Virus record (IMG/VR): IMGVR_UViG_3300042691_011260
Coordinates: 1 to 22,118 of that record
From: a virus
Reading direction: 5' to 3' (one strand)
DNA length: 22,118 bases
Part shown: positions 745-18,574 of the stretch, piece by piece
How the letters are laid out: each line of letters begins with the position of its first letter
Position numbering within the stretch: position 1 is the first letter of the stretch
The notes under the pieces: model-generated
Seen by the model: only the letters and a program-made list of their open reading frames with translations
Database searches by the model: none
Told to the model about the DNA's origin: nothing
Position numbers and translations under genes: made by a program

Positions 745-2220
745 TTAACGCTGGAAAATGTGAACGCTGAAAAGTGTGCGTTGCTGGCTTCCAAGAAGAC
801 CGCCTGCAACGCCGCCGATGGTTGCGGTCCCTGTGGTAACGCCCATGCGGACGGAGTAGGAAACCGTGGATCCGTTTGCTAAAACTGAGTTCAGCTGATC
901 GAAAAAACTGAATGCCACAACCAGCCGCTGTGAAGCCACTGTCGCTGAAAAAGGTGCCGCGTAAACAAGCGTGGCCGCTCCGCCATCAATCACTCTGAAA
1001 ACTGACACAACAACCGTTGAAACTGCGGAGGCAACGACAGGAGCACTGAACGAAACGACAGCAAACGGATCAGATTCATTTCTGGCTGAAATAGCCGCAG
1101 CCAAAACTCCATTCGCACCGTAATCTGTTGCCGAAGAATAGTTTGCAACCTCCTGACCCTCAGTGATTAAAGGCGGCGTGTCATCGAACGGAATAACCGT
1201 GTTTATTACTTGTGAAAGTAATGCTCCAAGAGTTCCAAATGGAACAAACACATCCTTGAAATAAACCTCATTGGTGCTGTTGCAGGTGTGCTTTAAATAC
1301 CTTGCTCGGAAAGGGGACGTCAAAACAGGAGCCACCAAAGCCCCCCAACCGCCGCTTGTCTGGTTTCTAACCAAAATACGGCCCCCAGCTTGTGTTGGAA
1401 GAGTTTCTAAAGCATTGGAAACGGTGATGTCCTGGACGTCCCCAGTTCCTGCCGACGTCCTACCCTTCAGGGTTCCGCTTGCAATGTGCGCCAGTTTCCC
1501 GTTCGTGACTGCCTGCGTGAGGATCTTTGCGGTAGTCACCGACGAGTCAGATGGGTCAGCTTGTGAGGCAACCCAGTTGCCAGCAGCCACACCGGTGGAG
1601 TGGTAAATCTTGAGCGTGGACCGCTCCAGCCCAAGCTGGCCAAGGAAGTCTGGCACCTTCACCGCCCGCTCCGCAGCGTCTTGCCAAGTGGCAACAGGGT
1701 TATCCACCAAGGGGGCCGTGAGACTCAGGAAGCTGACCATTTCTTGTTGGCTTCGGAAAACCAATTGCCCGGAGCCGTCGAGCCCGAGAACCGAAAGCGG
1801 AATGCTGGGTTTCTCGGTGGGCGTGGTGCTGGCCTCGGTGACCCTGAAGCACTGCCCAATCTTCCGCAAAGTCTGCTGCACCAAGTACGTCAATTTATCC
1901 AGCGCCCTCTCATGGGAAATAGCCGGGAAAGAGTCGTTGTTTGCGTAGGACGTCAACTGGGTGGCCGGAACTTCTCGGTAGAATGTAAGCGTGAAATCAC
2001 TGCCCCACCCAAAATCAAAGTAAACCGTGCATCCAGCAGGATTACCCAAGCTTCCAACAGTATACTGAGCAGGATTTACGGTGGATTCAAACCCAGTCGA
2101 AATCTCTTTTGATACAACAACCAAATCGCTTGCGTTATCAACGCGAAACGGAATGTTGTACGTCACAGGGGAGTCAGACCCGATGAACGCAATTTTGGAG
2201 ACTGAGCTTTCGACGGACAT
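745..2220 (-). CDS. Tail fibre protein, T7 gp17-like N-terminus
   Basis: This 491-residue protein (T7 gp17 has 553) is the likely receptor-binding fibre. Residues 1-125 follow the T7 fibre N-terminal pattern that anchors the fibre to the tail: an opening beta region (YNIPFRVDNASDLVVV), then FTLTFYREVPATQL and a helix with SHERALDKLTYLVQQ. Residues about 215-275 carry fibre-shaft-like sequence (SVTTAKILTQAVTNGKLA, then LKGRTSAGTGDV). The C-terminal 200 residues are beta-rich and unrecognised, and end SVHIFQR. I see no endosialidase-type chaperone tail or enzymatic motif. It lies directly downstream of the giant ejection protein gene, as gp17 follows gp16 in T7. The start at 2220 has no Shine-Dalgarno sequence (CCCCCTAAATG). 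The family call at the N-terminus is firm; host specificity cannot be read. Confidence 0.88.
   Translation of the reverse strand: MSVESSVSKIAFIGSDSPVTYNIPFRVDNASDLVVVSKEISTGFESTVNPAQYTVGSLGNPAGCTVYFDFGWGSDFTLTFYREVPATQLTSYANNDSFPAISHERALDKLTYLVQQTLRKIGQCFRVTEASTTPTEKPSIPLSVLGLDGSGQLVFRSQQEMVSFLSLTAPLVDNPVATWQDAAERAVKVPDFLGQLGLERSTLKIYHSTGVAAGNWVASQADPSDSSVTTAKILTQAVTNGKLAHIASGTLKGRTSAGTGDVQDITVSNALETLPTQAGGRILVRNQTSGGWGALVAPVLTSPFRARYLKHTCNSTNEVYFKDVFVPFGTLGALLSQVINTVIPFDDTPPLITEGQEVANYSSATDYGANGVLAAAISARNESDPFAVVSFSAPVVASAVSTVVVSVFRVIDGGAATLVYAAPFSATVASQRLVVAFSFFDQLNSVLANGSTVSYSVRMGVTTGTATIGGVAGGLLGSQQRTLFSVHIFQR
818..830 (+). repeat. 13-mer ATGGTTGCGGTCC, copy 1 (in fibre gene)
   Basis: Exact copy of the 13-mer found also at 16399-16411 and 17204-17216. 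Here the minus strand codes G-T-A-T-I near the fibre C-terminus. Confidence 0.5.
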
Positions 2221-2260: not shown

Positions 2261-5200
2261 CTATTTTGAGGACGTTTTTTCTCCGCTCACATTCTGAAGC
2301 AGTTTCGCTGCGTCTGTTGCCACGTTGCCCATCACAGACAAGGCCGCTGCGTTATCGGAAAAAAGACCCATGGCAGAAAGCATCGTGTTCATGCCCTGCA
2401 CCACCTGCGCCGCCGATTGCTCGCCGTCCAACAGGGATTCGACAGCCCGCCCGGTTTGCTTGAGTTTTGAAAACAAGGTTCCACCGTCCCCGGTGAGAGC
2501 GTTGAACCCAGGAATGCCGTTCAGCGGTCCTGTGACTGAAGCAATGGCCAGCCGTTTTGCGCTCCACTTCTCTTCGTCATCGTCACCCTTCATTTCCCTC
2601 CAGAGGTTTTTCAGGATCTGCGTAAACAGCCCCCCCACGATGAATGTCAGAACCATGGTTTTTGAAACCTGAGCGGCATTCCCTCCCTGAACCGCCCATG
2701 CAGTCAAAGCGATCTTCTGCCTTGCTTCACTCGCAAATGACCATCCAAGGCGGGCCATCGGGTGCGTTGCCGTCAATTCAGCAAGCGAACGGTTAGCGGC
2801 ACGGGTGGGCTGCGCCACGGCCTCTGTGTCTTGTGCCGCCTGATCATGCGCAAACCTGTCAGCCTCTTGGCCGGTCAAATTGAGTTCCGCAGCATTGCCT
2901 TTGTGATAATCCAGAAGGATTGCATACGTTCCAGCCGTGAAAAGCGCGTCCGCTCCTGTGATCAGTTTTCCGACTTGTCGAGCGGCATGCTTGATCAAAT
3001 TGGGTTTGCCTGCGTCTCCAAGAGCCTGCATCGCCTGCTGAACGATTGCCGGCGCCTGCTTGATTCTGCGCTGAATGAACTCGGACTTAATTGCGTCTCC
3101 CCACCCAAGTTGACCTGACATCAGCTTTGAAAGCCGAAGAACGTATGCGCCCAACGGCATTTTCACTGACGCCGCAGCAAGCTGGGTTGATTGAACCATG
3201 ACCGTTGAAGCCCGACCAAAAAGCGCCATCATGGACGCACGGCCGAGCATTCTGCTCAACTGCCTGCTGATCGAAAGGCTGGCCGCGGCTTCACGGATCC
3301 CGCCTTGTGCAAAGTAGTTCAGCCACCCAGTCAGCACCGTCTTCCCTTCCGGCCCTGCCTTTGCCTCAACTGCGTTCGTGACGTCCCTATGCGCGAGGAT
3401 GGCTTGTGCATCAACTGCAAGATCGTAATAAGCCGCCCAGTGTTCCATGGACCTCTTGTGCGCAAGAAATACCTTCAGGGCGTCCCTGAAGTTGGGTTCA
3501 GCCACGGCAGTCAAAGACCGGCTGCGAAGTGAGCCAGGGGTGAGGATTGAGCCCGAAACCGGGGCGCCAGAAACAGGGTCAACCGTCTGGCCGAGTTTTG
3601 TCTGTTGCGGGTTTGCCGAGATCGGAGAGTAGTTTTCATGCTTCGGCAGGGAAACCCCGTGGCGCTTTTGATACAACGGATTTAACTCGGCATGCTCTGC
3701 ATCGTATTGCTTTCGCAACCAATCCATGACCTTCACGGCCTCTGGTGAAAGAGACTTGGTAAGAGCATCAACGAAATCTTGGGTGTAATGCCAAGCGCCA
3801 GCGGGCTGCCCATTTCCGTCAAGCTTGCCGATCATGTGCCGCTTCCCGTCCTCCTGCATCCACATCAAGACGGCAGTCAATGCTTCCAGTTCTGAAAACT
3901 CTCCTTGATCGGTTTTGATCGAACGCTGCGAAAGCTTGTAGTGCAGCCGTTCACCGTCAACAACCCCACCGGCCATCTCAGTGAACAGGTCGCTGATTGC
4001 AGTGTTCAGCGAATCCATTTTGTCTTCAAGTTGGTTTGAGGCTTCCACTTCACGCTTTTTAAATTCAGAGCCGAACTTTGATTCTGCCCCAAAAAGGTAG
4101 TCCACAACCTGAGAGAATGACGAAAGGTTCAGAAGCGCGGTCAAAGATTTACCGGCGACAGAAACCGCATTCTTTTCGGCTTCAATCCTCTCAGCGCGGA
4201 CCCCTGTTTTCCCGGTGTCTTGAACAAGTCCCTTCCTTGCAATCTCTCGGTCCTCCTTGAGTTGAAGCTGTTGGAACTTCCAGCGTGCCCATCCTTCGCT
4301 TCCGACAAGCTTCACCGCATCAATCGCTGAGACAAGCCGTGCAGAGTCGGCATTTTTTATGTCACCAAGCAGAGGTAGGATGTCCCGGATGGTTCCGTTT
4401 TTAATGACATCCTCCGGGCTTGCGTCTGGGTCATTTGCAAGCGCGTCGTATTTTGCAACCAGCGCCGCCACCTCCGTGGCATCCATGATCATTGCAGCCT
4501 CTGCCGCATCAAGAATTTCTTGCGCCTGCGCTCCAATCTTTCCTTTGGGTTTCTTTCCGGCTTCACGTTGCGGACGGTATGAGTCAAGAACCCGATCAAG
4601 CTGCGCCCGGTATTCCTTCCGAAGTAGTTTTTCCAGTTCGGTTTCCGCTTTGGCAAGTCGCCTTGAAAGCTCGTTCGCTCTTCCGGTTTCGGTCTTCAGG
4701 CTTGCAAGCTGCACGAACCCGCCCACGCGCCCGCGAACCTCGGCAGGGAATGCGGACAGAATGGCATTGAGTTCTCCGACCACCTGAGCCGTCCGGGCCT
4801 GCCGCGTGCCTTCGCCGGTGGCAGCCGCCAGCGCCTTGGAAAGCGCCATGTTGGCCGCCCTCAGTTTGGTTCCGTGAACCAGTCGGGCGGTGTTTCGCTG
4901 CTTGTCCGTGGTGGCCGCAGCGAGGGCTGCGTCACGCTCTGCGTCGATCCGCGCAACCTCTGCGTCATGCGTGGCCTTCGCCTCTTCGATGATCTCCGCA
5001 GGCTTCCGCGTGTCGGCCGCTTGAGCTTCAGCGATGGCAGCACGGTTTCTTTCCACCAGTTCTCGAAACTTTTTCTTCGCGCGTTCATAGATCTGGATCC
5101 TGACGGTGGGCTTGGTCTTGAGCGCATCCATCTGCGCCGCCAACTGCTCCGCATACGGCGCAGCCCGGCGGCCTACGCTGAAGCGGGCTGACCTCTGAAA

Positions 5201-8200
5201 GTTAGATCCGCGTACAACTCCTTCTTGCTGGAGGGAACCCTCCCGGGGATCCATTGAGGAATCTGCGCCACCAGCTCGGCGTCCAAGGGGAATGAAAGGG
5301 CCCCCGTCGAGAACACTTCCAGCCACGCCGCTTTGTTGGGCATCATACCCGAATTCAGTATTGGCCCAGCTTGGAGGCTGAATTCCGCCTGAGAGATCCC
5401 AAATCCTTCTGCGGACATCATCAATTCCGTATTTTCCTTCTGCGTGTTCATTCCAAAGTGCGTCAAGTTGTTGAGTGAGTTTCCCAGATGTCTTCTGTTC
5501 CTTGGTGAAGAGTAGTCGGACGGCTTCCCATGTCACGCTTTGAACTTCACGGGCAAGCACCTGCCTTCCAAGGATCCTGCTGAGTTCATCTGCAAGCTCT
5601 TTGTATGCTGTCGCGTAAATTCCGTAGGTTCCGCCAACCCCCACAAAAGAGTCACCACCCGCTGCTCCAAAGTTGTCTTTTACCTCCTTTGATGTTCCAG
5701 ACAACGAATTCAGAAGAGCGGCAGCAATCGCGTGGGTGTCAATTGTGACATACCCCTTTGCGTTGTGCGGGTCTGAAATGTTGTTGAAGAAATTCCTGAC
5801 CTTGTGCTCTTCGCCAAGGTTTCTCGAAATGTTCTCAAGGCTTCCATCGTCAAGTATTGAAAAAGCTTTGGCTATGAAGTTGTAGCTGCTCCATGCAACC
5901 ACGGCCGGCTCACCCTTTGACGTCAGAGCAATCTCACCACGCCCGCCTTCTGGCAAAATAATCCTGTAGGATCGGTCGCCCTCCATTTCATCAAGGGCAC
6001 GGAAAAGACGGGCTTTTCCGTCGTAGTCAAGTTGACTCCATGGCTTCCCAACGGTGCGAGGTCTAATGGCTTCCCATTTTGCGTTTTTCTTTATGAACTC
6101 AGCCCTGGCTTCTTCTCGCTTTTCAATAAAAGCGGACTTTCGTTCACGCTCTTTTTTTCTGTGATCCTTTTTGCGCTGTTCTTCTGAAACGTTAAATTCC
6201 TCCTCTGAAACTCCAGAACGCTTACTCCATTTCTTTGGTTTGAAAATGCGGGGCTTGAACTCAGACTCTGCAACAGCTCTGACCTCTTCGACATCGTTGT
6301 TGTAGCAGTAGTCAAATCTTTCTTGGGTAAAGACAAAGTCTTCCTTCATCGCCCGTTTCCAGATCCGCATGATCCGTTCCGCCATGGAAACATTCTGGAA
6401 CCAGTCTTTTTGAGGGCTTTCAACCGCAAGCACACCGGCCGCTTGCTCAACGGTTACCCCGTAAAACTCAGCGCATGCTTCTGCAATTTTGTTTGCCCCC
6501 ACATACCAAAGCTTTGCCCGCTCCTTGTACTCTTCTGGGAACTTATCCCACAACCAGAGCAAATTGCTTTTCACCAAATCAATGAAATGCCGGACGACTT
6601 CATCGTCAGTTCCAGCGGCCTGCTCGTCGGTCAAATACTTTACCGATCTTCCGCCCTCTTGAACTCCATCACGAAGATTCTGGGCAAGCTTTGCCTTTAG
6701 TTCTTCGGACTGGTTGACGGCTTCAAGGTTGATGTGGAGAACCTCTTGTGATTCCACTGCCTTTTTTGCAGTTGGAACCCTAGTGGAAACGGTGCCACGC
6801 CCCCCAATGTACTCAGCCGGTGCAAGGTTCAGGTGCCTTTCATCAATGGCAACTTCCTCCTTGGGTGCCTTTTTCTTCCTGACGCTGAAACGAATGTCCG
6901 GCGTATCCGGGTTGAACCGCTGCGAAAGCGGCATGACATTCCCCTTTTCGTCCCGGGTTACAGGGTCGGCGGATTTGATTTGCAAACTTCCTTTGTATCC
7001 AACTTCCGCTCGATAGTCTTCCCTGCCGTCTGGGAATTCGTCGTCAATCTCTATCTTTGACTCAGGAACCGCAAGGCGAATAACCGATCCATCTCCATAT
7101 CCAGCCCCAGATGGATCGGTGGTTAAATAAACCGCAGGTTCTGCATCAGGTCGCAAAATTCCGGAACGCTCAATCGCAGCTTTGTTGATTGCTGTTGTTC
7201 CATGATACAAGACCTTGAACCCCGCTGCCTCCGCCGCCTCGTCCACCATCTTCTGAGCCGTCTCCATATCTCCACGGTCGACGGCGTCCAGATACTTCCG
7301 GTCGGTTTCTGACACCTGCCGTGCGCCGACGCTGAAGCGCGTGACGATTTCAGCGGGCTGCCCGGTCAGCTCCTGCGCGGCTTTCATTGCTGCCTCCTGC
7401 TCCTGAACGACTTCAGTCAGCCCCACGGACCTATTCAGGAACGCCACCCAGTTTGCATCAATCTTGCCTTCGCGAATCAGCTTCTTCAGCTTGGCTGCGT
7501 TTCGGAATGTCTCCCGAAAAAACTTTGCCATCCTCAAGAAAAACGACCGCACGCTTTGGGGCATGTTTTGGATGAACCGGAAATTTCCTCCAAAGTAGGC
7601 CCGGCCCATTTCAGCAACGGCTTCTTCCAACGCCTGATCGGAAAATGTCTGCGGCGCCTTTTCCCCTTGGAACGAACGCACTGCGGCTTCGGCCTCTTCC
7701 CGCGTGATGATCCCGGCATCCCTTTCCTGTCGAAACCGGAAGTGCACTTCTTCCTCAATGACGTCGAATGGGTTGGAATCAATAAACACTGAGTTGACCA
7801 CACGCACCACTCCGTCCCGGACCTCGGTGACATTCTGTCCGAACACTTGGGCTTCTGAAGGCGCAAGCCCTTCCAACCCCGCAAGCTGCATCCGTTCCGC
7901 GATCTGCTCCGGGGTGGCCAGCGTGTCATCCTCGAGTGTCACAATCTTCGGCACCACCTCCCATTTGCGCTTGTCGGAATCCCGCATTCCAAGCCAGTCG
8001 GCAAGTTCGCGCACCGCCACGGCCGCCCCGGACTCTTCCCACTCGTTACGGCTTTGCAGCGCCAAGGATGCCGTTTCTGGATCGTCAAACGCCATGGACG
8101 AACTACCGTCCGGTTCCACGATCCGAAACTTCCCTCCCTCGTAAACCATGGTGGGCGTCTCGTTCGATGTCGCCGCCGCGGTCTCACGCGCCACCCGCGC

Positions 8201-10111
8201 CTCCGCCTCCGCAATGCCCGCCCTGATGCTTTCCGGGGTGCGCTTGCTCTGTTCCTCGAAAAACACGGCCTGCCGCGCCTCGGGTGTTTCCTGTGACGCA
8301 ATGGAGGCGGCAACCTCCCGGGGCAGCCCGTACTCCACAAGCGCCTGTTCGCTCGCCAGTAGATTTCTGAATGCCGTGGTTTCCCGGATCCCAGCGGCTC
8401 CTGCGCCGAGGATGGCAAGCGGGAGCACGGAAAGGAAAGTCTCCAGCCGGGTGCCGCCGAACTCCTGCCATTCCTCTGCCCAGTTGACGCCATCAATGTC
8501 TTTGTTCAGGGCCGCCCCGATGGCTTTGACCGTCGGCAATGCCAGATCCTGAAGTGCCTCCTCAAGATTCTGCTCCGCGATGTTGGCACCAACCTGAATC
8601 CCAAGGACCTTGAACAAATTGACGTTCGGGGTGCGGATTGCCTGAACCAGCTTCGACGTTGCAGGCAGAAGCCCGACGGCGTTCCGAATTTGAAGCATCT
8701 CAATGCCGCCCTCGATAGTCCCGGCAACGGTTGCCATCGCAAGGGCTGACCTTGGGTCAATGTCAGGTTGGTCCGCCACGATTCGCTCATAGGCGGAATC
8801 GACAAAGCTCGCGGTCATCCAGGGGAGCCCAACACCCGGGATGGCTCCAGCCACCATTTGCGGCGCGGATCCGGCCAGCCCCACAGCCATGGTCTCAGCC
8901 ACCCAGCCCGGGCCTGTCTTGTACGCCGGACGGATCGGGTCAAGGTACTGCCTCGAAACTTGCTCAAGCTGGTTGGTGACTTGGTAGAACTTCAGCGTGC
9001 CTTCCAGCTTTTTTGTCAGCGCCGGAATCTCCGATGCCGGGACCGGATCCGCAGCTTGCAACGAAACCTCCAAACCGAACGCGCCTTGGACAGCCGCCAA
9101 ACTTGTAGCGATCCTTCCTCCGCCCAAATCGTAAACAGGCTTCCCGTCCTTGATCGCCTCAAGCGCACTTGCCGCATCCGCTGCGGACAACGCTTGCGAA
9201 ACCTTGGAAAGCCGCAATGCGTCCAGCCCTCGGGAGGCTGAAATGCCCATGTTCTTGAAGACCTTCTGCAAATTGCTGACGGCCGCCCCGGGATCCTCGG
9301 GTGACATTGAGGCCGCACCGGCGACAATCGCACGGAGCACGTCGGCCCGTTCGGCATCCGGCAATTCCATCAGCCGGGCCGCTGCCTCTTCACTGAGCCC
9401 AGCCCCCTGGTTGATCCACTTGGTGCCACGCTTGAGCGTGTCCAGCGTTTCCAGCACAAGCGGCCGGTTTTCGGTGGCGACTTTGAAAGCCCTCTGGAAT
9501 GCGTCCCGATAGGCCACCGACTGCTCCAACCCAAACCCCCAGTTTGCATCAAATCCCGGCGCCTTCTCAGCGCCTTTCCGCCACTCAGATTCCGGTGTGC
9601 TCCAGTCCGGTGGGGAATTCTCCAGCGCACGCTGGAAGCCACGGGAGGCTGCGTCAGCGTCACGCTGGAAAGCCAGCTTCGCCTTGTCTTCCCCGTCCTG
9701 ATACTGCCGAGATACCTCGGAGTACATTTCCAGATCCCCGGCATCCTTTTTTCCCAGAGTGGCCTGCGCCCACCTAGCCCGGAGCCCCTCGTAAGTCTTC
9801 GCGGCCGTGTCGTAATCCATGCCCCCGGCTTCCGCCAGAAAAGCGGTGTTTGCCACACGGGCTTTCACCTCGTCTGGGTTATCGGTCGGGGGGAGCCGGA
9901 GTTCCTGTTCCTTAGTCCATAGCCCGCCTAAGTCAGACACCGACTTGAAAGACTGCCGGAGCCGGGCGGCCCCATCCCGTGCACGGTCAGCGGCTTCCGC
10001 TTCTGCCGCTGTCACCCATGTCCGAAGCGCCGTTTCAATCTGCGGTTTCCGCTCGGGCGATGCGTTCGGATACTCGTCCGCCAGCCGGTCCGCTTCAAGG
10101 TCGGTGATCAT
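2261..10111 (-). CDS. Giant polyvalent ejection (internal virion) protein, gp16-position, with ART-like and glycosylase-like modules
   Basis: This 2616-residue protein sits where T7 has gp16 (1318 residues), immediately after gp14- and gp15-like genes, and its ATG overlaps the preceding stop (ATGA). Known gp16 proteins leave the capsid with the DNA and help form a trans-envelope channel. Visible layout: 1-400 helical; hydrophobic stretches about 402-440 and 556-575; 925-928 RFSV linker; about 929-1073 ADP-ribosyltransferase-like module (YHGT with H970, YLTTDP with Y995, E1036, ending SADPVTRDEKGNVMPLSQRF); second RFSV at 1074; about 1180-1530 module with VESPQKDW (W1237) and VTIDTHA (D1458); third RFSV at 1643; 1650-1900 charged coiled-coil; 1900-2600 a block typical of podoviral giant proteins, probably including an LPD38-type domain, with a hydrophobic helix near 2486-2505. 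I see no lytic transglycosylase motif. This fits the 'polyvalent protein' class described for phages and conjugative elements. Enzyme activities are inferred from motifs only. Confidence 0.85.
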   Translation of the reverse strand: MITDLEADRLADEYPNASPERKPQIETALRTWVTAAEAEAADRARDGAARLRQSFKSVSDLGGLWTKEQELRLPPTDNPDEVKARVANTAFLAEAGGMDYDTAAKTYEGLRARWAQATLGKKDAGDLEMYSEVSRQYQDGEDKAKLAFQRDADAASRGFQRALENSPPDWSTPESEWRKGAEKAPGFDANWGFGLEQSVAYRDAFQRAFKVATENRPLVLETLDTLKRGTKWINQGAGLSEEAAARLMELPDAERADVLRAIVAGAASMSPEDPGAAVSNLQKVFKNMGISASRGLDALRLSKVSQALSAADAASALEAIKDGKPVYDLGGGRIATSLAAVQGAFGLEVSLQAADPVPASEIPALTKKLEGTLKFYQVTNQLEQVSRQYLDPIRPAYKTGPGWVAETMAVGLAGSAPQMVAGAIPGVGLPWMTASFVDSAYERIVADQPDIDPRSALAMATVAGTIEGGIEMLQIRNAVGLLPATSKLVQAIRTPNVNLFKVLGIQVGANIAEQNLEEALQDLALPTVKAIGAALNKDIDGVNWAEEWQEFGGTRLETFLSVLPLAILGAGAAGIRETTAFRNLLASEQALVEYGLPREVAASIASQETPEARQAVFFEEQSKRTPESIRAGIAEAEARVARETAAATSNETPTMVYEGGKFRIVEPDGSSSMAFDDPETASLALQSRNEWEESGAAVAVRELADWLGMRDSDKRKWEVVPKIVTLEDDTLATPEQIAERMQLAGLEGLAPSEAQVFGQNVTEVRDGVVRVVNSVFIDSNPFDVIEEEVHFRFRQERDAGIITREEAEAAVRSFQGEKAPQTFSDQALEEAVAEMGRAYFGGNFRFIQNMPQSVRSFFLRMAKFFRETFRNAAKLKKLIREGKIDANWVAFLNRSVGLTEVVQEQEAAMKAAQELTGQPAEIVTRFSVGARQVSETDRKYLDAVDRGDMETAQKMVDEAAEAAGFKVLYHGTTAINKAAIERSGILRPDAEPAVYLTTDPSGAGYGDGSVIRLAVPESKIEIDDEFPDGREDYRAEVGYKGSLQIKSADPVTRDEKGNVMPLSQRFNPDTPDIRFSVRKKKAPKEEVAIDERHLNLAPAEYIGGRGTVSTRVPTAKKAVESQEVLHINLEAVNQSEELKAKLAQNLRDGVQEGGRSVKYLTDEQAAGTDDEVVRHFIDLVKSNLLWLWDKFPEEYKERAKLWYVGANKIAEACAEFYGVTVEQAAGVLAVESPQKDWFQNVSMAERIMRIWKRAMKEDFVFTQERFDYCYNNDVEEVRAVAESEFKPRIFKPKKWSKRSGVSEEEFNVSEEQRKKDHRKKERERKSAFIEKREEARAEFIKKNAKWEAIRPRTVGKPWSQLDYDGKARLFRALDEMEGDRSYRIILPEGGRGEIALTSKGEPAVVAWSSYNFIAKAFSILDDGSLENISRNLGEEHKVRNFFNNISDPHNAKGYVTIDTHAIAAALLNSLSGTSKEVKDNFGAAGGDSFVGVGGTYGIYATAYKELADELSRILGRQVLAREVQSVTWEAVRLLFTKEQKTSGKLTQQLDALWNEHAEGKYGIDDVRRRIWDLSGGIQPPSWANTEFGYDAQQSGVAGSVLDGGPFIPLGRRAGGADSSMDPREGSLQQEGVVRGSNFQRSARFSVGRRAAPYAEQLAAQMDALKTKPTVRIQIYERAKKKFRELVERNRAAIAEAQAADTRKPAEIIEEAKATHDAEVARIDAERDAALAAATTDKQRNTARLVHGTKLRAANMALSKALAAATGEGTRQARTAQVVGELNAILSAFPAEVRGRVGGFVQLASLKTETGRANELSRRLAKAETELEKLLRKEYRAQLDRVLDSYRPQREAGKKPKGKIGAQAQEILDAAEAAMIMDATEVAALVAKYDALANDPDASPEDVIKNGTIRDILPLLGDIKNADSARLVSAIDAVKLVGSEGWARWKFQQLQLKEDREIARKGLVQDTGKTGVRAERIEAEKNAVSVAGKSLTALLNLSSFSQVVDYLFGAESKFGSEFKKREVEASNQLEDKMDSLNTAISDLFTEMAGGVVDGERLHYKLSQRSIKTDQGEFSELEALTAVLMWMQEDGKRHMIGKLDGNGQPAGAWHYTQDFVDALTKSLSPEAVKVMDWLRKQYDAEHAELNPLYQKRHGVSLPKHENYSPISANPQQTKLGQTVDPVSGAPVSGSILTPGSLRSRSLTAVAEPNFRDALKVFLAHKRSMEHWAAYYDLAVDAQAILAHRDVTNAVEAKAGPEGKTVLTGWLNYFAQGGIREAAASLSISRQLSRMLGRASMMALFGRASTVMVQSTQLAAASVKMPLGAYVLRLSKLMSGQLGWGDAIKSEFIQRRIKQAPAIVQQAMQALGDAGKPNLIKHAARQVGKLITGADALFTAGTYAILLDYHKGNAAELNLTGQEADRFAHDQAAQDTEAVAQPTRAANRSLAELTATHPMARLGWSFASEARQKIALTAWAVQGGNAAQVSKTMVLTFIVGGLFTQILKNLWREMKGDDDEEKWSAKRLAIASVTGPLNGIPGFNALTGDGGTLFSKLKQTGRAVESLLDGEQSAAQVVQGMNTMLSAMGLFSDNAAALSVMGNVATDAAKLLQNVSGEKTSSK
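5174..5185 (-). repeat. R-F-S-V linker repeat, copy 3 (giant protein residues 1643-1646)
   Basis: The minus strand reads CGCTTCAGCGTA, encoding RFSV followed by Gly. It matches copy 1 (7328-7339) at 11 of 12 bases, and flanking bases agree too (15 of 17 over the longer stretch). It marks the junction between the DTH-motif module and the coiled-coil region. Confidence 0.7.
6881..6892 (-). repeat. R-F-S-V linker repeat, copy 2 (giant protein residues 1074-1077)
   Basis: The minus strand reads CGTTTCAGCGTC, encoding RFSV within DTPDIRFSVRKKK. A D-I-R-F/Y-S ending is, from memory, usual at the C-terminus of this type of ADP-ribosyltransferase-like module, so it marks that module's end. Confidence 0.7.
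7328..7339 (-). repeat. R-F-S-V linker repeat, copy 1 (giant protein residues 925-928)
   Basis: The minus strand reads CGCTTCAGCGTC, encoding RFSV within VTRFSVGARQVSE. It lies about 40 residues before the ADP-ribosyltransferase-like H-G-T motif and marks the start of that module. Confidence 0.7.
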
Positions 10112-11733
10112 CGGTCTTTTTTACGGCTTTCCATGGGGCCGGTCAATGAACCCGGTGCAACAGGTGAAGCGCCTTTGTTTTCAGGCAAAGGAGAGAACAC
10201 CTCGTCCGGGTTCGGTGTCTCCCCAAGGACGCCTTTCACTTTCTTCACGGTGTCGCTTTGGGGCTTCGTCGGAGCCTTGAATGTATTTCGTCCAAAAGTT
10301 TCGGACCCAGAAATGCCAATGATTCGCATGGCCTCTAAAATTGCATCGTTCCTTCCAGCGTTCGGATGTTGTCTCAAATACCGATCGATGCTGTCGCTTG
10401 CTTGGTTGTACCGCTTCAAAGTTTCATTGCGCTCAACAAGCTTTTCCTTCCATTTGTCTGAACCAGTTTTCAAACCCCAATCCTCGAACCAATAATCCCA
10501 CGGGGCATTAGAAGGAGCCTTGTTTTCTTTGAAAAAATCCTCGTGCAGCACCCCGAACTGACCAGCTTCCTTTGCCGCTTTGAGAACGTCACGGGCTGCA
10601 CTTTCAACTTGGCTGGACGGTGTCCTTGGCCCTGCCTTTCTGGAAATCCGATCAAGGAATCCCTGCTTGAAACCATCTGGAACAAACGCCTTTACCTTCC
10701 TTTCAATTTCGTACCGCTTTTTTCCGTCCGGGTCAGATGTCGGATCGTAATCGTCGATGCCTGCATCGAGTTCGTTTTTCAGATCCTCATTCGGCCCCAT
10801 TTTCCTTGAGAAAAGAACTTGAGTTTCAGCTTTCAGCTTTTCGTCCCAGTACGGCCCAGCCAACCGTTCTGCATCTTTAAGAGAATCGAACTGGTTGTTT
10901 TCAAAATAAAGCCGAATGCTTTCCAGTAAATCTGCCTTTCTGCGGTTGATCGACCGTCCCGCTTCATCCTTCAACTGTTCCCTGTTTCTGACCGTCAATC
11001 TTGTGAATTGCTTTGGATCTTCAAGTGAAGGAAGCGCCGTGAGCGGATCCCGATCAATGGCATCTTTTGCAGTTTTGAACTCGGCCTGAGACGCAAGCCC
11101 CTCAGCCATTGAGTTCGCTGTGTCTGTAGAGATGAGCTTTTTCCGTTCCATTTCCGCAACTACCTCCCCGGCCCCGGGCCAATCCCCGCGAGATTTTTTC
11201 TGCTCAAGGATCTGCTCATGTGCGTTCAGCGAACGCTTGAAGACTTCCCGGTTTGCAGCCGTGGTCAGGTTGGCGATGGACTCACCTTCCAGCTTCAATG
11301 CGCTGCGCTCAATCTTCTGCCGGGCCATCGGTGAAAGTTTCTGATCGCCCAGTAACTCCTGCTTCACCTGAGAGAACCGGGACTGCCAGCCGCTCACGAA
11401 CTCGTCAGTGGGAGTGCTAGGGGTCAGCTTTGAAGTGTAGTCCGCAAACTCAACCTGCATCCTGTTGCCCGCCTCGATTGCGGCCGTATCAGCTTCGGCC
11501 TCCATCTTCGCCTCGGAAATTTTACCGAGCATCTTTGCGATTTCACCACCGGCCTGCCCAAGCGCCTGCAAGCCCTTGGCCGGGCCGTCAAAACTTCCCT
11601 GCTGCAACAGGCTGCGCTGGTACTGGCGGCCAATCCCGGCAAGGTTCACCTGACCAAGCGAGCCGATATTCCCGGGGCCTTGCTGCACCGGTGCCGGTGC
11701 GTTCGGAATGTCTGCTAGTGGTATGCGTGGCAT
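10108..11733 (-). CDS. Internal virion (ejection) protein, gp15-position
   Basis: This 541-residue protein (T7 gp15 has 747) begins MPRIPLADIPNAP and has a Pro/Gly-rich first 50 residues, then long charged helices (for example GKISEAKMEAEADTAAIEAG near 70-90). It has no signal peptide or membrane segment. A role as a capsid core protein ejected with DNA is inferred from its place between the gp14-like and giant genes, and from its soluble, helical, charged composition. It starts 3 nt after the gp14-like stop, and its TGA overlaps the ATG of the giant gene (ATGA), so translation of the two is probably coupled. No Shine-Dalgarno sequence is present before its ATG (GTTAACCCATG). I see no enzymatic motif. 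The position is strong evidence; sequence-level family membership is not certain. Confidence 0.75.
   Translation of the reverse strand: MPRIPLADIPNAPAPVQQGPGNIGSLGQVNLAGIGRQYQRSLLQQGSFDGPAKGLQALGQAGGEIAKMLGKISEAKMEAEADTAAIEAGNRMQVEFADYTSKLTPSTPTDEFVSGWQSRFSQVKQELLGDQKLSPMARQKIERSALKLEGESIANLTTAANREVFKRSLNAHEQILEQKKSRGDWPGAGEVVAEMERKKLISTDTANSMAEGLASQAEFKTAKDAIDRDPLTALPSLEDPKQFTRLTVRNREQLKDEAGRSINRRKADLLESIRLYFENNQFDSLKDAERLAGPYWDEKLKAETQVLFSRKMGPNEDLKNELDAGIDDYDPTSDPDGKKRYEIERKVKAFVPDGFKQGFLDRISRKAGPRTPSSQVESAARDVLKAAKEAGQFGVLHEDFFKENKAPSNAPWDYWFEDWGLKTGSDKWKEKLVERNETLKRYNQASDSIDRYLRQHPNAGRNDAILEAMRIIGISGSETFGRNTFKAPTKPQSDTVKKVKGVLGETPNPDEVFSPLPENKGASPVAPGSLTGPMESRKKDR
10117..10126 (-). repeat. 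CCGTAAAAAA motif upstream of the giant gene start
   Basis: On the minus strand CCGTAAAAAA ends 5 nt before the ATG at 10111. Here it also codes for the end of the upstream protein (S-R-K-K-D-R). The same nonamer core precedes the starts at 2220 and 20675. Confidence 0.3.
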
Positions 11734-11736
11734 GGG

Positions 11737-12423
11737 TTAACGTGTTGAGGGCCTTCCGTAGTATGAAGTGGCAGTGCTTCCAGCCTGCGCAACGCCAGAA
11801 ATCAAAGTCGCGTAGCTTTGCGTCTTGTACCCCTCAGCGGCTGCCCGGCCCTGCAACTGCGTCAGCTTTGATTCGTCAATTCCGATTTTCCGGGCGGCCT
11901 CTGCTGCCTTGCTTTGGAGGTCCAGAACATACTGATCCGACTGGAGCCCGAACTTTGTCAGCTCCGCTTCGCGTTGAAGTGCCCGGCTTCTAAGGTCTGC
12001 TTCGTATGCAATATCTTGATTTTGAAGCTCAAAGATCCCAGCCGTTTCGGCCAGAACTGCAATCGGGCTTCCCTCGGTCATCACCCCAGCCTTTGCATAG
12101 GCTGCCCTCTGGGCGGCAAGCATGCGTTGCTGTTCAAGCCTGGCTCGTTTCTGCTGTTCGTTTGCAGTCTGCTCAATTTGCCCTGCCTGCTGCTTAATGA
12201 CCTCAGCCTGTTGCCCCTGAAGCTCAAGTGCCCGCTGGTTGATTTCATTCTGACGGTTCGCAAGCGCGGCATTGATTTCAGCCTGTTGGCGCTGAATGGC
12301 GGCGTTGTATTCAGCGATTTTGCGGGCATTTTCTGCCTGCTGCTGTTGTCCGTAAGCGGTGACGCTCGCCGTTGTGACTGCGGCGATAGCTGTGACGATT
12401 GCGGCGACTGTTCCAACTGCCAT
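11737..12423 (-). CDS. Internal virion protein, gp14-like, with N-terminal hydrophobic helix
   Basis: This 228-residue protein (T7 gp14 has 196) opens with a hydrophobic Ala/Val/Thr-rich helix, residues 1-24 (MAVGTVAAIVTAIAAVTTAS). A strongly Gln/Ala-rich coiled-coil follows at about 25-115 (AENARKIAEYNAAIQRQQAE), and then AAYAKAGVMTEGSPIAVLAE at about 108-127. This layout, with the 'AGVxxxGSP' segment after the coiled coil, is characteristic of podoviral gp14-type ejection proteins, which are thought to form the outer-membrane part of the DNA ejection channel. It is 3 nt downstream of the acetyltransferase-like gene and 3 nt upstream of the gp15-like gene. A weak AAGG lies about 11 nt before the ATG. 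The family call rests on pattern, size and position together. Confidence 0.82.
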   Translation of the reverse strand: MAVGTVAAIVTAIAAVTTASVTAYGQQQQAENARKIAEYNAAIQRQQAEINAALANRQNEINQRALELQGQQAEVIKQQAGQIEQTANEQQKRARLEQQRMLAAQRAAYAKAGVMTEGSPIAVLAETAGIFELQNQDIAYEADLRSRALQREAELTKFGLQSDQYVLDLQSKAAEAARKIGIDESKLTQLQGRAAAEGYKTQSYATLISGVAQAGSTATSYYGRPSTR

Positions 12424-12426
12424 AAG

Positions 12427-12867
12427 TTAAACCTTGATTATCAAATGCTTCATTCCGTCGTCAGTAAGCTGAAAACCATTTTTCTGAAACGCTTTCGCCA
12501 GTGACATCGTTTTGCAGTAGGTCAACATTGTGTGGTATCCATTTTGAGAAGCACACAACCGAGCCGCTGCGGTGAGATGCTCAATCGCGCGGAATACGTC
12601 GCGCGGAGGCGTCGCTGGGTTGCCCACAACGAACTCAAGCATGCAAACCCCGCATGAGTTGTCCATGTAGACCCACCCGGCAAGGCAAGGCTCCCCATTC
12701 CGTTCAACCATGATCCCGAGCTTTGGAACCATTTGCATTGGAAGAGGGTGCGGCCACCCATGCGCCTTCCACCACTCAGAAACCACCGGGTAATCGGTTT
12801 CGATGTCCACCATCCGCACAGACAGAATCGCACGCCCGGCCGGTGTCGGTTTTGCGTCAGTCTCCAT
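12427..12867 (-). CDS. GNAT acetyltransferase-like small protein (gp13 position)
   Basis: Read from the ATG at 12867 this is 146 residues, beginning METDAKPTPAG. An alternative ATG at 12873 adds two residues, and the open frame reaches 12933. I prefer the internal start because longer versions overlap the nozzle gene by 17 nt or more and begin with low-complexity sequence. The fold suggested is GNAT: a beta region (LGIMVERNGEPCLAGWVYMD, then CMLEFVVGNP), a helix (DVFRAIEHLTAAARLCA) and a C-terminal SLAKAFQKNGFQ like the GNAT 'x-x-F-x-x-x-G-F' ending. The acetyl-CoA pyrophosphate loop (Q/R-x-x-G-x-G/A) is not clear, so activity is doubtful. It lies between tail tube B and gp14-like genes, the place of T7 gp13 (138 residues). 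Confidence 0.72.
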   Translation of the reverse strand: METDAKPTPAGRAILSVRMVDIETDYPVVSEWWKAHGWPHPLPMQMVPKLGIMVERNGEPCLAGWVYMDNSCGVCMLEFVVGNPATPPRDVFRAIEHLTAAARLCASQNGYHTMLTYCKTMSLAKAFQKNGFQLTDDGMKHLIIKV

Positions 12868-15127
12868 ACACATCGAACTTCGACACAACCGCCAGCAATG
12901 TAAAGGGCATGGGCTGCCGCTGCCGGATGGCAATGGTGCCTTTGGTTTCGTAGGGCCGGGACAGCATCAACTGCTTGTCCCCCGTGAACGGCGGTGGGCT
13001 TTCGTCCATCAGGTCTGAGGTTGAACGGAAATCCATAACGTCCCACACCCCGGGTTCAACTTCCACCTCGCCCCCCAGGCTCTTGTAAATCCGCAGCGTG
13101 AGCCGGTGCACCTTGAATTGGCGCCCCTGAGCGGATCCATCCTGAAGGTTGCCCGGGTCGAGCGGCATCGTCCGGATCTCGGATGTGTAGGGCAACCCCA
13201 CCACCACGTCAGAAGCGGCGATGTCCAGCGTCAGCGTGGTTCCTGCCAGCACCTTTCCCTGCACCGGCGAACCGTCGGCCAGAACGTCCACCGTCTTCCC
13301 GGTCAGGTGTGGAATGACAAACGTGGTGGCCGGAGCGCCAGAAAACCGGATGGCGGAATCGAGGTAAACCCACTCGGTCTTCACCTCGGACTCAAGGTCT
13401 TCCCGATAGCCAGGGTCGAACCGCTCAACGTATCGTACGGTGGATCCGTTCACGGTTCGATTCACGGCCACCCAAACCTCATCCCCGGCGGGGCCGTAGA
13501 TGCACGCGACGGATTCATAAGTGCCCTGCGTAGTGTGCCGGTGCCACCCCACCACGTTCTGGGTGCGTTCGTAGGTCATGCCGGCCAGAGTGCCGTTCCC
13601 TGTCACCACCCAAACGATTGCATCCGGCTGTTGTTGGAATGCCGTCTGAATGATGGTGCCTTCTGTGACGTGGTCGGCCAGAAGCGTCAGGTCCGGCGAA
13701 ACGTAGCGGTCGCTTTCAAACTGGTAGACGAACTCCCGAATCTTGCGCCCCTGTCGTTGCACGAAAAGCGTCACCTCATTTGCCAGCACGGCTGACTCAT
13801 ACTTGCTGCCGAAATGCGACTGGGGCCGCACGTTGACATTGGAGGGCGTCAGCGGCGACTCGTTGCTTCCTTGGACCACATACTCGTATCCCGAAGTGCC
13901 GACGAAAAGTGCCTGCTGGGAAATCATCCAGTTGATTGGATTCGTCTCGATGCTGGCGATACCGAACTCAAAAGACTCGTCGTCATTCACCCCGAGTCGG
14001 AAATTCTCAAAGTCGTTGATGGCGCTTCCCCAAATCGTCTGCGCGTTGTTCGCCGTTCCGCCAAACACAAGCCGCTGTTCGTGCATCACCACCGTCCTAG
14101 GGTGCCCCCGGCGATCTGACCACGCTCCTTCCGCCCAAAAGGTTGTCGCGGTGGCCGAAAACAAATCTTTGACCACAGTTCCAGTGACCACCGTGGAGCT
14201 TGTGAACCCGGTGATTTTTACAACCCCGTAAACGGAAGGGTCAGTGGCTTCAATGTATGCAACGTCAGCGGTGGTTCCAACTGTTCTGTTACTAACCGTT
14301 ACACGCAAGTTGCACTCTTGGGTTTCGTATCCGGTTGTTGAAATGTTTCTGTCAGAGTTGCCAGCATAAGACCGAATTGGCTCCCACACCGCCGACCCAA
14401 GCTGCTGCCTTTCAACGGCGACCGTTGCTGTCCATGTTTTATAAGTGTTAAACGCCCAGTTGCCGATGACGCGAATCGGGGCGCTGCTGCCATTTGTGGC
14501 AAATGTTTTGATTTCCGAAGTCGAGCTGCGCTTGTGAACAATGACGTAATAACCACCGACGTTTTCAGCCGTGAACGTGGCGGCGCTGGCGGTCAGTGTG
14601 ACCGTCCCGGTGGTTCCGCTCGGCGTGATCGTGGTGGCTGAAATGTTCTGCGGCAGAGCCGCCGGGAACGTCCATTGCACCTCGGCCAGCGTCCAGTTGG
14701 TGTCAGACAACCGGCTCAACTTGTGAACCGGGTGAAGCGGGTGAACGATGTACATGACATCGTTAATCTGCACCCACTGGATATCAAAAAGCTCTGCCTC
14801 AAGGTAAGGGCTGGCTACCTCATAGGGCAGCCCAGCTACCTGCACCTGTACGCCGTTTGAGTAGAACCGAACGTACTGATCACCGAACTCCAACACGAAG
14901 TTGGTGGTGGTGCTGAAGTTGAAGCTGACCAGTCGGCACTTCTTGTTCGCATGCTTGGCCGCAGCGATAAACACGGATCCCGGGCGGCGGTTTACCCCGC
15001 CGTAAGGCATGAGCGTGAAATTCTCAAGCGTCCTGCACCCGGATCCGTACTTGTCGAGGTCTGGACGGGATTCAAGCCGTGCGCTCAGTTCCCCGGCGTT
15101 GAATGAGGAAGTGAGTTGGGAAATCAT
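12857..15127 (-). CDS. Tail tubular protein B (nozzle), gp12-like
   Basis: At 756 residues this is close to T7 gp12 (794), which forms the hexameric nozzle at the end of the short tail. The N-terminus is highly typical: residues 1-50 include SFNAGELSARLESRPDLDKY, then TLENFTLMPYGGVNRRPGS, followed by FVLEFGDQYVRFYSNGVQV around 75-95. The middle includes RVVFGG-type segments (MHEQRLVFGGTANN, then WGSAINDFENF), shared by nozzle proteins as sensors of molecule boundaries. Its ATG at 15127 overlaps the tail tube A stop (ATGA), so the two are translationally coupled, as expected for interacting tail proteins. It overlaps the next gene by about 11 nt. Confidence 0.95.
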   Translation of the reverse strand: MISQLTSSFNAGELSARLESRPDLDKYGSGCRTLENFTLMPYGGVNRRPGSVFIAAAKHANKKCRLVSFNFSTTTNFVLEFGDQYVRFYSNGVQVQVAGLPYEVASPYLEAELFDIQWVQINDVMYIVHPLHPVHKLSRLSDTNWTLAEVQWTFPAALPQNISATTITPSGTTGTVTLTASAATFTAENVGGYYVIVHKRSSTSEIKTFATNGSSAPIRVIGNWAFNTYKTWTATVAVERQQLGSAVWEPIRSYAGNSDRNISTTGYETQECNLRVTVSNRTVGTTADVAYIEATDPSVYGVVKITGFTSSTVVTGTVVKDLFSATATTFWAEGAWSDRRGHPRTVVMHEQRLVFGGTANNAQTIWGSAINDFENFRLGVNDDESFEFGIASIETNPINWMISQQALFVGTSGYEYVVQGSNESPLTPSNVNVRPQSHFGSKYESAVLANEVTLFVQRQGRKIREFVYQFESDRYVSPDLTLLADHVTEGTIIQTAFQQQPDAIVWVVTGNGTLAGMTYERTQNVVGWHRHTTQGTYESVACIYGPAGDEVWVAVNRTVNGSTVRYVERFDPGYREDLESEVKTEWVYLDSAIRFSGAPATTFVIPHLTGKTVDVLADGSPVQGKVLAGTTLTLDIAASDVVVGLPYTSEIRTMPLDPGNLQDGSAQGRQFKVHRLTLRIYKSLGGEVEVEPGVWDVMDFRSTSDLMDESPPPFTGDKQLMLSRPYETKGTIAIRQRQPMPFTLLAVVSKFDVYGD

Positions 15128-15726
15128 ACGATGTCAGAGATGAACCGCCGGCGGACAAGATCCGACTCCGCCCAAGGCAGCTTCCGCTTCCCCCGGGCCT
15201 CTGCGGCGTCCTTCTGCATCGCAAGCTGCCCGATCTGGGCGTTGAAGTCGCTCAGGTATTCCAGCCCCTGCTGACGGCTCCCCGTCAAAGGCTGGCAAAT
15301 CTTGGATGCCAACCGGGTTGCCAGAGCCTCCACGAAAATGGGATCGAACTGGGAGGAGTCCAGAACCTGCGACGTGTAACGGATCTGCGCGGAGTCCGAA
15401 TCAGTCAGAAGCACCTTCCCCTCAATCTCAAAAAGGCCGCGCTGTTCGTGAGACTCCCACGCGTTCAACTGCCGAACCATGAGGCAGTCAATGGGCAGTT
15501 GGTACTGGTATCCCCACCCGAACTCCGGGGCGGTGGCCAGAGCCGCCAGTGTGGCCCGCTTGGATGCGAAATTCCAATCGTGCGCCCGGAGCACTTCGTC
15601 CCGGGTTTGCTCAAAGAAAAGCTTAAGGTATCGTGCCGGCTGGGATGCGTCTTCGAATGACGCCACCCGAATGGAACCGATTTTTGCAAGGGCCAGATTT
15701 CCAATGGTGATTGAGTCGGTTGCCAT
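15124..15726 (-). CDS. Tail tubular protein A (gatekeeper), gp11-like
   Basis: From ATG 15726 the product is 200 residues (T7 gp11 has 196). It starts MATDSITIGNLALAKIGS, then ASFEDASQPARYLKLFFEQ and RDEVLRAHDWNFASKRA, the classic gp11 pattern. The protein forms the ring joining portal to nozzle. A TTG at 15753 would extend it by nine residues, but that codon lies in the T-tail of the terminator upstream, so I use the ATG. No Shine-Dalgarno sequence is present (CTTCAACCCATG). It is the first gene after the terminator, so its expression probably relies on read-through, as for gene 11 downstream of T-phi in T7. Confidence 0.93.
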   Translation of the reverse strand: MATDSITIGNLALAKIGSIRVASFEDASQPARYLKLFFEQTRDEVLRAHDWNFASKRATLAALATAPEFGWGYQYQLPIDCLMVRQLNAWESHEQRGLFEIEGKVLLTDSDSAQIRYTSQVLDSSQFDPIFVEALATRLASKICQPLTGSRQQGLEYLSDFNAQIGQLAMQKDAAEARGKRKLPWAESDLVRRRFISDIV

Positions 15727-15751
15727 GGGTTGAAGCGTTTGAAAACTCTGC

Positions 15752-15797
15752 AAAAAGAAGGGCGGCCCGCCCGGTTTTCAGTCAGACGGGCCGCCCT
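15752..15797 (-). terminator. Intrinsic terminator after the capsid genes (T-phi-like position)
   Basis: A perfect 11-bp stem (15759-15769 with 15787-15797; arm GGGCGGCCCG) closes a 17-nt loop. On the minus strand it is followed by TTCTTTTT. It lies 17 nt past the stop of the small head protein gene, the place of T-phi in T7. On the plus strand no T-run follows. Confidence 0.88.
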
Positions 15798-16311: not shown

Positions 16312-17184
16312 TTAGGACTCAAGGCAGGAGATTTCGACAACCTTCTTTTCCTCAAGCCGAACAGATCCGAGGCGGGCCACGCTACGAACCTGCAACGCAT
16401 GGTTGCGGTCCGGGCGGATGTCCATCATGACCTTGTGCCCTGCGTCGCTCAGAACCACGCCGCTCTTCGCGTAGGCAAAAATCCGGCGGGTTGTGGACGC
16501 TTTCGGCAACCGCTGCGAACGCACCCAGGTGAAGCCCATGAACTTGGTAATGGTGCCATCGACCAAGGCGCGGACGTTGTTGAAATCCGAAGATTTCACT
16601 TCGTTCACGTTGTTCAGCAGGTCATCAAGCTGTGCCTGGGTGTAGACCATGATCAGTTCTTCTTCCTCGTCCACGTCGTTTTTGCCGAACAGTGACTTGG
16701 CAGCGATGATCTTGCCGAGGGTCAAACCGGTGCCGCCGATGGCAACCTTCTGGGATGCCGGGAGTGCGGTCAACGTGGTGCCATCGGCGCCGCTGATTGC
16801 GGAACCACCCAAGGCATCAATGATGACCTGATCGCAAGTCCGCTTGTAGGCGGCCGCGTGAGCCTGAACGGTCTGGCTGGAGGGCAACACGATGGTGCCC
16901 AAAAGCCGCTCGTCGAACTCGTCGAAAATGTTGACGCTGTCGTAACCCTTTTCCCGGATCCACCGCTTTGCCAGCGGCAAATCCTGCTCGGTCGTCTGAC
17001 CTGCGCGGGACGTGATTTCGCGCATGGCGATTTCGTTAATCTGGTTGTAGGTCTTTTCCTTCCCGTTGACGGTGTCAAGGGTGACGTACTCTTTCAACCG
17101 GCTCTGCTTCTGTTGCACAAGGTGCATCCAGTTTGTAGAGAACTCGGTCACATAATGTTCGGGAATTTGTTGAATAGCTGACAT
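16312..17184 (-). CDS. Major capsid protein
   Basis: This 290-residue protein has the sequence pattern of podoviral HK97-fold coat proteins: MSAIQQIPEHYVTEFSTNW at the N-terminus, QQKQSRLKEYVTLDTVNGK near 24-42 (before the E-loop), LAKRWIREKGYDSVNIFDEFD near 70-90, and HAAAYKRTCDQVIIDALGG near 108-127 (spine helix). The C-terminal half has GKIIAAKSLFGKNDVDEEE and AKSGVVLSDAGHKVMMDIRP, typical of such proteins. It follows the scaffold gene across a 234-nt gap with a hairpin and a candidate promoter, consistent with separate high expression. The leader just before ATG (AAAACTACCATG) has no Shine-Dalgarno sequence, surprising for what should be the most abundant phage protein. T7 gp10A is 345 residues, so this is on the small side but within range. 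Confidence 0.92.
   Translation of the reverse strand: MSAIQQIPEHYVTEFSTNWMHLVQQKQSRLKEYVTLDTVNGKEKTYNQINEIAMREITSRAGQTTEQDLPLAKRWIREKGYDSVNIFDEFDERLLGTIVLPSSQTVQAHAAAYKRTCDQVIIDALGGSAISGADGTTLTALPASQKVAIGGTGLTLGKIIAAKSLFGKNDVDEEEELIMVYTQAQLDDLLNNVNEVKSSDFNNVRALVDGTITKFMGFTWVRSQRLPKASTTRRIFAYAKSGVVLSDAGHKVMMDIRPDRNHALQVRSVARLGSVRLEEKKVVEISCLES
16399..16411 (+). repeat. 13-mer ATGGTTGCGGTCC, copy 2 (in capsid gene)
   Basis: This is an exact copy of the 13-mer at 818-830 (in the fibre gene) and 17204-17216 (capsid leader). Here the minus strand codes D-R-N-H of the capsid protein, a different reading frame from the fibre copy. Confidence 0.5.
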
Positions 17185-18277: not shown

Positions 18278-18574
18278 TCACTTCTTCACGCGTGGCCGTT
18301 TTGCCTTGGCGTCGTTCTCCCCGGCTGGGGGCGCCGCCAGTTTGGCCTGAACGTGAAGAATAACTTGCCTCTGCCCGTCCCGGATCGCTGCGTGGATCGG
18401 GTCAAACTCTGAGTGGCCGCCCCGTTCGAGGGCGAAGAAAGCTGGGAAGTCGAACCCGAACGAGGCTTTGAGGTCCGCGAGAACTGCGGCGCCATCCTCG
18501 GATCCGAACGTGCGATGGTAGGCGTTGATCAGTTTCTGGGCCGCCCGTGCCCGTGCGTCTGCGGTGTCTGTCAT
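18278..18574 (-). CDS. Bbp19-like small protein
   Basis: This 98-residue protein resembles the Bbp19 family of short phage proteins found next to portal genes: AAQKLINAYHRTFGSEDGAA (about 11-30), then VLADLKASFGFDFPAFFALE and a C-terminal helix (DGQRQVILHVQAKLA), ending in a basic tail (KAKRPRVKK). Its ATG overlaps the portal stop (ATGA), so it is translationally coupled to the portal gene, and it is followed 13 nt later by the scaffold gene. The role in virion assembly is unknown in the family. It has no membrane segment or signal peptide. The family call is from the 'Y-x-x-x-F-G-S-x-D-G-x-x-V-L-x-D-L' pattern. Confidence 0.75.
   Translation of the reverse strand: MTDTADARARAAQKLINAYHRTFGSEDGAAVLADLKASFGFDFPAFFALERGGHSEFDPIHAAIRDGQRQVILHVQAKLAAPPAGENDAKAKRPRVKK

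Follow-up and report, generated by a model that had tools for sequence, protein, structure and literature searches.

The stretch analysed here, referred to as the window, is a virus record of 22,118 bases taken at its full length. All its recognised virion genes are carried by the minus strand. In their order on that strand, they are a terminase (21007-22116), a portal (18571-20271), a scaffold-position protein (17419-18264, with a weak phrog_458 match, 1.6e-6), the capsid (16312-17184), gp11 (15124-15753), gp12 (12857-15127, phrog_376), a gene 13-position protein (12427..12933, phrog_17252, GNAT-like by eye), a gp14-like internal virion protein (11737..12423, phrog_418), an unnamed gp15-position protein of 541 aa (10108..11733, recognised by iterated psiblast across the family loci), the giant ejection-type protein (2261..10111), and a tail fibre with a gp17-type N-terminus (745..2220). 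The virion operon thus has the order 12-13-14-15-16-17, identical to that of T7 genes 12-17, and the giant gene occupies the gp16 position, as a preliminary description of this DNA had proposed.

The giant gene is a single open frame of 2616 codons. The coordinates given for it in the preliminary description were right, and its strand, minus, is added here. Its product is indeed twice the length of T7 gp16 (2616 versus 1318 residues). A full-length relative with 97% identity, L001, was found on an independent IMG/VR contig, and 50 distinct full-length relatives possess both halves of the protein. We conclude from this that the open frame is a real gene.

Relatives of the giant protein and their surroundings

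The first relatives, L001 and some partial ones, came from a tblastn-confirmed search, and a search with the aligned C-terminal half of the protein (C-half) yielded 79 IMG/VR loci. Profiles of the N-half and of the C-half both matched 50 distinct full-length proteins, 2063-3546 aa long, as well as the window protein. These family members are not independent of each other, so that the counts given below make the evidence look stronger than it is; this also holds for the 30 nonredundant proteins kept after thinning by N-half similarity. According to iterated psiblast, 51 of 53 family loci have the gp15-position protein next to the giant gene and 40 of the 53 have gp14, many loci ending early on the 5′ side. 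ORFs related to the gene 13-position protein were seen in 25 of them.

Unlike T7 itself, which was matched as a control, three near-full-length contigs of relatives gave no match to a T7-type RNA polymerase. None was found either in five further relatives, searched without a positive control. On the L001 contig, the initial 17.5 kb (L203) include an early region with a DNA helicase, an exonuclease and a Sak4-like annealing protein, together with a weak polymerase/primase match. At another locus (L010:2-16801), an open frame of 5600 aa, cut at its 5′ end, contains at least one module of the ART type, with DIRYS as its last residues.

Among the isolate phages of the collection, no clear match to the C-half was found, and one record from a fecal sample matched it at 21%. 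Six loci from bacterial bins contained the C-half, all of them Verrucomicrobia by title and five of them Akkermansiaceae or Akkermansia. These bins are weak evidence for a host, because only 1 of the 75 Akkermansiaceae genomes searched carries the C-half. In one Akkermansiaceae bin, the relative of the C-half (L189) sits on an 89-kb contig, the usual family contigs being 35-41 kb long.

Conserved halves and an exchangeable slot

The N-half (residues 1-924, 7340..10111, minus strand) was matched by its profile in the window and in all 50 full-length relatives. It contains a hydrophobic stretch at residues about 404-470 and, just before the slot, a zincin-like stretch (residues 735-850, 7562..7909, minus strand). 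Where ten relatives have HExxH in this stretch, the window has EEEVH (E786-E-E-V-H790), which means that the first zinc ligand is lost. Most relatives have this motif in a degenerate form, and all 51 proteins share a glutamate where the window has E830. No match to Pfam zincin models was obtained in 25 N-half segments. Given the degeneracy of this stretch in the window and in most relatives, a protease acting in cis is not evident.

The C-half (residues 1647-2616, 2264..5173, minus strand) was delimited by alignments and by a predicted model, which is all-helical with a mean pLDDT of 79. Residues 1900-2600 had been named for profile searches alongside the two enzyme-like segments; alignment and model place them not in a third enzyme but within this conserved helical half. 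The model paired 229 residues with the T7 core protein 9jyy_I (Z 6.8) and 214 residues with the PhiM1 ejectosome protein 8vb2_A (Z 6.7). Among the matches listed (50 of 937 re-aligned PDB chains), these were the only two with more than 200 residues at an rmsd under 6 Å, and both fell on residues 352-723 of the model, that is, about 1995-2365 of the protein. A Foldseek search of the C-half against the PDB returned nothing significant. The predicted C-half thus resembles gp16-type core proteins of T7 and PhiM1 by fold only, and for a helical protein a Z near 7 is not decisive. Kinship of either half with T7 gp16 at the level of sequence profiles was dropped, as neither half scored above controls when compared by hhalign with four gp16 proteins. 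Besides its double length and its cargo slot, the giant protein differs from T7-type gp16 by this lack of detected sequence similarity, and by the lack of any Pfam match to the lytic transglycosylase domain found at the N-terminus of the 1318-residue T7 protein (PMC8954989). This domain is also missing from gp16 of P22 and Sf6, and is hence not universal in gp16-like proteins (PMC8954989). What the two share is the gene order 12-17, and a helical C-half may be added to this through its fold match, which has a modest score.

The conserved halves enclose a slot that measures 301-1703 aa across the window protein and its 50 full-length relatives and is filled with effector modules that differ from one relative to the next. 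The enzyme-like middle region suggested earlier for this gp16-position protein is thus supported, and it lies between conserved halves. The slot of the window holds an ART-type module followed by a DUF7178 module. In L001, exactly residues 925-1073 are absent, which leaves N-half, DUF7178 and C-half; conversely, L027 consists of N-half, ART and C-half, without DUF7178, and L026 has a different type of ART in its slot. Differences by whole blocks were also found between L035 and L036 (a block of 402 residues) and between L087 and L099 (blocks of 223 and 101 residues), both ends of each block lying at most 7 residues from a copy of the motif described in the next section. The remaining indels of the same list, obtained by global alignment of unlike slots, did not have their ends on the motif. 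A scan of 32 slot segments recovered ART-PolyVal, DUF7178, PBECR5, LPD3, LPD23, RadC, Kinase-PolyVal and others.

The ART module (residues 929-1073, 6893..7327, minus strand) had been delimited in the preliminary description as an ADP-ribosyltransferase-like segment with these same boundaries, which fit almost exactly the 149-residue block missing from L001. As to its nature, 7 of the 10 members of the module alignment (residues 926-1079) matched ART-PolyVal (PF18760; best 4.4e-20), but the copy in the window matched no ART model and gave only a sub-threshold KptA-like match (NCBIfam 0.067). The assignment rests on the homologues, since the window copy misses the Pfam model. H970 is conserved in 10 of 10 aligned modules and Y995 is plausible; the third residue of the H-Y-D triad was not located. 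The structural model of the module was built without aligned ART rows, and its low confidence is therefore uninformative. A BFVD entry named ART-PolyVal-like, A0A6J7WBL0, aligned with the model of ART plus DUF7178 over 723 columns. In two relatives (L089:9188-9649 and L036:8846-9304), ART-type flanks, VExGDMETAQ and GNVIPLSxRFNP, surround an unlike core.

The second module (residues 1078-1642, 5186..6880, minus strand) was characterised by Pfam, model, fold comparison and alignment. Its match to DUF7178 (PF23802) is clear, with 1.7e-20 and 74.2 bits against a curated cut-off of 27. The segment 1180-1530, for which a glycosylase had been guessed earlier, falls within it. The predicted model is confident over about residues 1126-1585 (pLDDT about 95), and K1437, D1458 and H1460 are invariant in the alignment. 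We give even odds to the reading that the module is a glycosylase of the HhH-GPD type or an enzyme that transfers bases, which would be injected and have nucleic acid of the host or the phage as its target. The best fold match of the model was DUF2419 (Z 9.1, 239 residues, rmsd 5.0), a queuosine-salvage enzyme described as similar to 8-oxoguanine DNA glycosylases (PMC11592518), and hOGG1 came next to it in support (Z 6.7, 165 residues, rmsd 3.7). Lys1437 and Asp1458 (IDTHA) moreover recall the K...VDTH arrangement of HhH-GPD proteins from MAGs. Against this, hhalign with six genuine HhH-GPD proteins, from three MAG genomes, and plain Foldseek against the PDB were not significant, a sequence comparison with the PDB gave no match, and Z values of 7-9 can arise by chance, so that the glycosylase guess stands at the level of fold. 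Fold matches ranked 3-11 involved mainly one long helical stretch, and phage PUGT gp46 gave a Z of 3.9 over 200 residues. DUF7178 is common in IMG/VR, where at least 580 stretches of it were confirmed, in ORFs of 2000-3500 aa and in shorter ones. At four loci (L116, L150, L155 and L157), the ORF that bears it is not giant but of about 520-730 aa.

A short motif at the module joints

The feature that stands out, and that the preliminary description had not seen, is the two-ended carrier with its exchangeable slot, combined with a repeated motif at the joints. The window has three copies of [FY]S[ILV][GARK] and no more, at residues 926, 1075 and 1644, one for each of the three joints. Each joint reads RFSV: joint 1 (residues 925-928, 7328..7339, minus strand) links the N-half to ART, joint 2 (residues 1074-1077, 6881..6892, minus strand) links ART to DUF7178, and joint 3 (residues 1643-1646, 5174..5185, minus strand), which adjoins a stretch predicted to be disordered, links DUF7178 to the C-half. 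A fourth [FY]S[ILV] of the window is inside DUF7178 and lacks the final [GARK] residue.

The same distribution was found across the family. In the 30 nonredundant proteins, the four-residue motif was counted 84 times in slots, once in N-halves and 5 times in C-halves. With the shorter form [FY]S[ILV], all 51 proteins gave 215 copies in slots versus 35 in shuffles, 6 versus 25 in N-halves, and 21 versus 29 in C-halves. After thinning to 30 proteins, the corresponding values were 119 versus 21.2 +/- 4.3 in slots, 6 versus 15.7 +/- 3.9 in N-halves (about 0.4% of shuffles were as low), and 12 versus 15.9 in C-halves. Tripeptides with the same residues permuted were present 9-30 times each in the slots of these 30 proteins. 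In 50 unrelated giant ORFs of polyvalent type, [FY]S[ILV] was not enriched (98 versus 101). Only the longer form [RK][FY]S[ILV] was, about twofold (26 versus 12), a few of the copies coming from the L001 protein.

Shared blocks were identified independently of the motif, through an all-against-all BLAST comparison. Of the ends of these blocks, 26% lay at most 5 residues from a motif, versus 10% at random. Left ends were placed at −1/0 relative to the motif, and right ends mostly at +2 to +4 and +7. On the grounds of these sequence comparisons, we regard as established the two-ended architecture of the protein, the exchange of modules, and the presence of the motif at the swap points.

Possible roles of the protein and of its motif

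The reading that we favour, with a probability of roughly 0.6, is that the giant protein serves as an ejected carrier whose cargo can be exchanged, this cargo being held in a slot between conserved halves and each module being bounded by the joint signature. Residues 1-924 and 1647-2616 would form a two-part carrier, which is probably housed in the virion core and would leave the particle before the DNA or together with it. Different phages would fill the slot with one to about seven effector modules, presumably enzymatic, which would be gained and lost as motif-to-motif blocks. The joint signatures appear, in the window, to lie in or beside stretches predicted to be disordered. For the role of the motif, our first guess is a cleavage site, which would free the modules after assembly or entry, and our second guess is a docking or packing linker.

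The motif might instead be a side effect of recombination, in which modules are exchanged, homologously or illegitimately, through a short stretch of DNA that is repeated. The window itself offers an argument for this, as the 12-base copies at joints 2 and 3 each differ by one base from the copy at joint 1, and L001 is joined precisely there. However, across the family the codon shares of the motif are near background and its serine is encoded by both TCN and AGY, so that there is no common DNA site, and the depletion of the motif in N-halves is not predicted by such a process. We consider this origin improbable, and a DNA recombination site as the cause of the motif was set aside on codon use, which points to selection on the protein rather than on the DNA. 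As it is maintained in the protein sequence and scarcely present in either carrier half, the motif most likely acts on the polypeptide. Under the processing reading, some protease (zincin in cis, phage enzyme or host enzyme) would cut at it and free the modules during maturation or after entry. This accounts for its location at module borders, its conservation in the protein and its depletion in the N-half. The predicted disorder before joint 3 and the HExxH kept by ten relatives just before the slot fit as well; PMC5512222 proposes zincin-type cleavage for polyvalent proteins and mentions the cleavage of P1 DdrB. Nevertheless, the joint motif persists in the window and in most relatives although their zincin motif is degenerate, and the window has no conspicuous protease of the prohead type, its scaffold-position protein showing only the weak phrog_458 match. 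We therefore hold processing tentatively, at somewhat less than even odds.

Alternatively, the motif may be a docking or packing linker, which would anchor the modules or keep the chain threadable through portal and tail, without being cut. A short hydrophobic-serine element that adjoins a predicted-disordered stretch and is conserved in the protein would suit this function, and its indifference to the state of the zincin motif is then expected. Still, a linker alone leaves the avoidance of the motif in the N-half unexplained, and we find this role possible but doubtful. It may also be that the giant protein is not injected at all, and is a structural core or scaffold with inert remnants of domains in its middle. 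Loss of the zincin site and failure of the ART core of the window to match the Pfam model go in this direction. On the other hand, modules are swapped whole and keep H970 (10 of 10 rows) as well as K1437 and D1458 (all rows), which inert filler would not need; this speaks against such a view, which we judge very unlikely. The most specific form of the carrier reading, in which [FY]S[ILV][GARK] would be a release signal of uncultured podoviruses, enzymes being cut from one tail-delivered polyprotein with DUF7178 as a glycosylase-fold cargo, is itself rather unlikely as a whole.

Injected proteins with several functions are not new. Polyvalent proteins of phages and conjugative elements, described in 2017 with zincin processing as a proposal (Iyer et al., PMC5512222), likewise unite a number of enzyme-like domains, unrelated to each other, within a single large phage chain whose entry along with the DNA is predicted. 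The combination of modules in one chain, put forward earlier as the unusual feature, therefore belongs to a class already described. In the window chain, DUF7178 is such a domain by its clear match, and ART would be a second one through its homologues. The giant family shares with the polyvalent set ART-PolyVal, PBECR, RadC, kinase and LPD domains in its slots and a zincin-like stretch in its N-half, and differs from it in having a single slot within a two-ended carrier, which is fixed and stands at the gp16 position, and a repeated border motif. The main text of PMC5512222 uses neither linker nor short motif nor processing site as a term, and glycosylase is absent from it as well. In the openly accessible literature that was searched, no description turned up of a carrier with two ends, a single slot and its own joint motif. 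The MuF polymorphic toxins of temperate phages (PMC5576092) also join a constant transport part to variable enzymatic modules; their variable domain is C-terminal, whereas the giant protein has several modules in series between two conserved halves. T4 Alt, an ART likewise packaged and injected with phage DNA, had been invoked as an analogy. The parallel is good for timing only; Alt, with its R-S-E active site, belongs to another clade than the polyvalent ARTs, which have H-Y-D (PMC5512222).

In the literature consulted, the release of separate enzymes from polyvalent phage proteins is only a proposal. The motif marking the borders, together with natural empty-site pairs of near-identical phages, makes such release directly testable. 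The family also provides an inventory of the effector modules exchanged within a single slot, from which candidate enzymes of early infection, such as DUF7178, may be found by their position.
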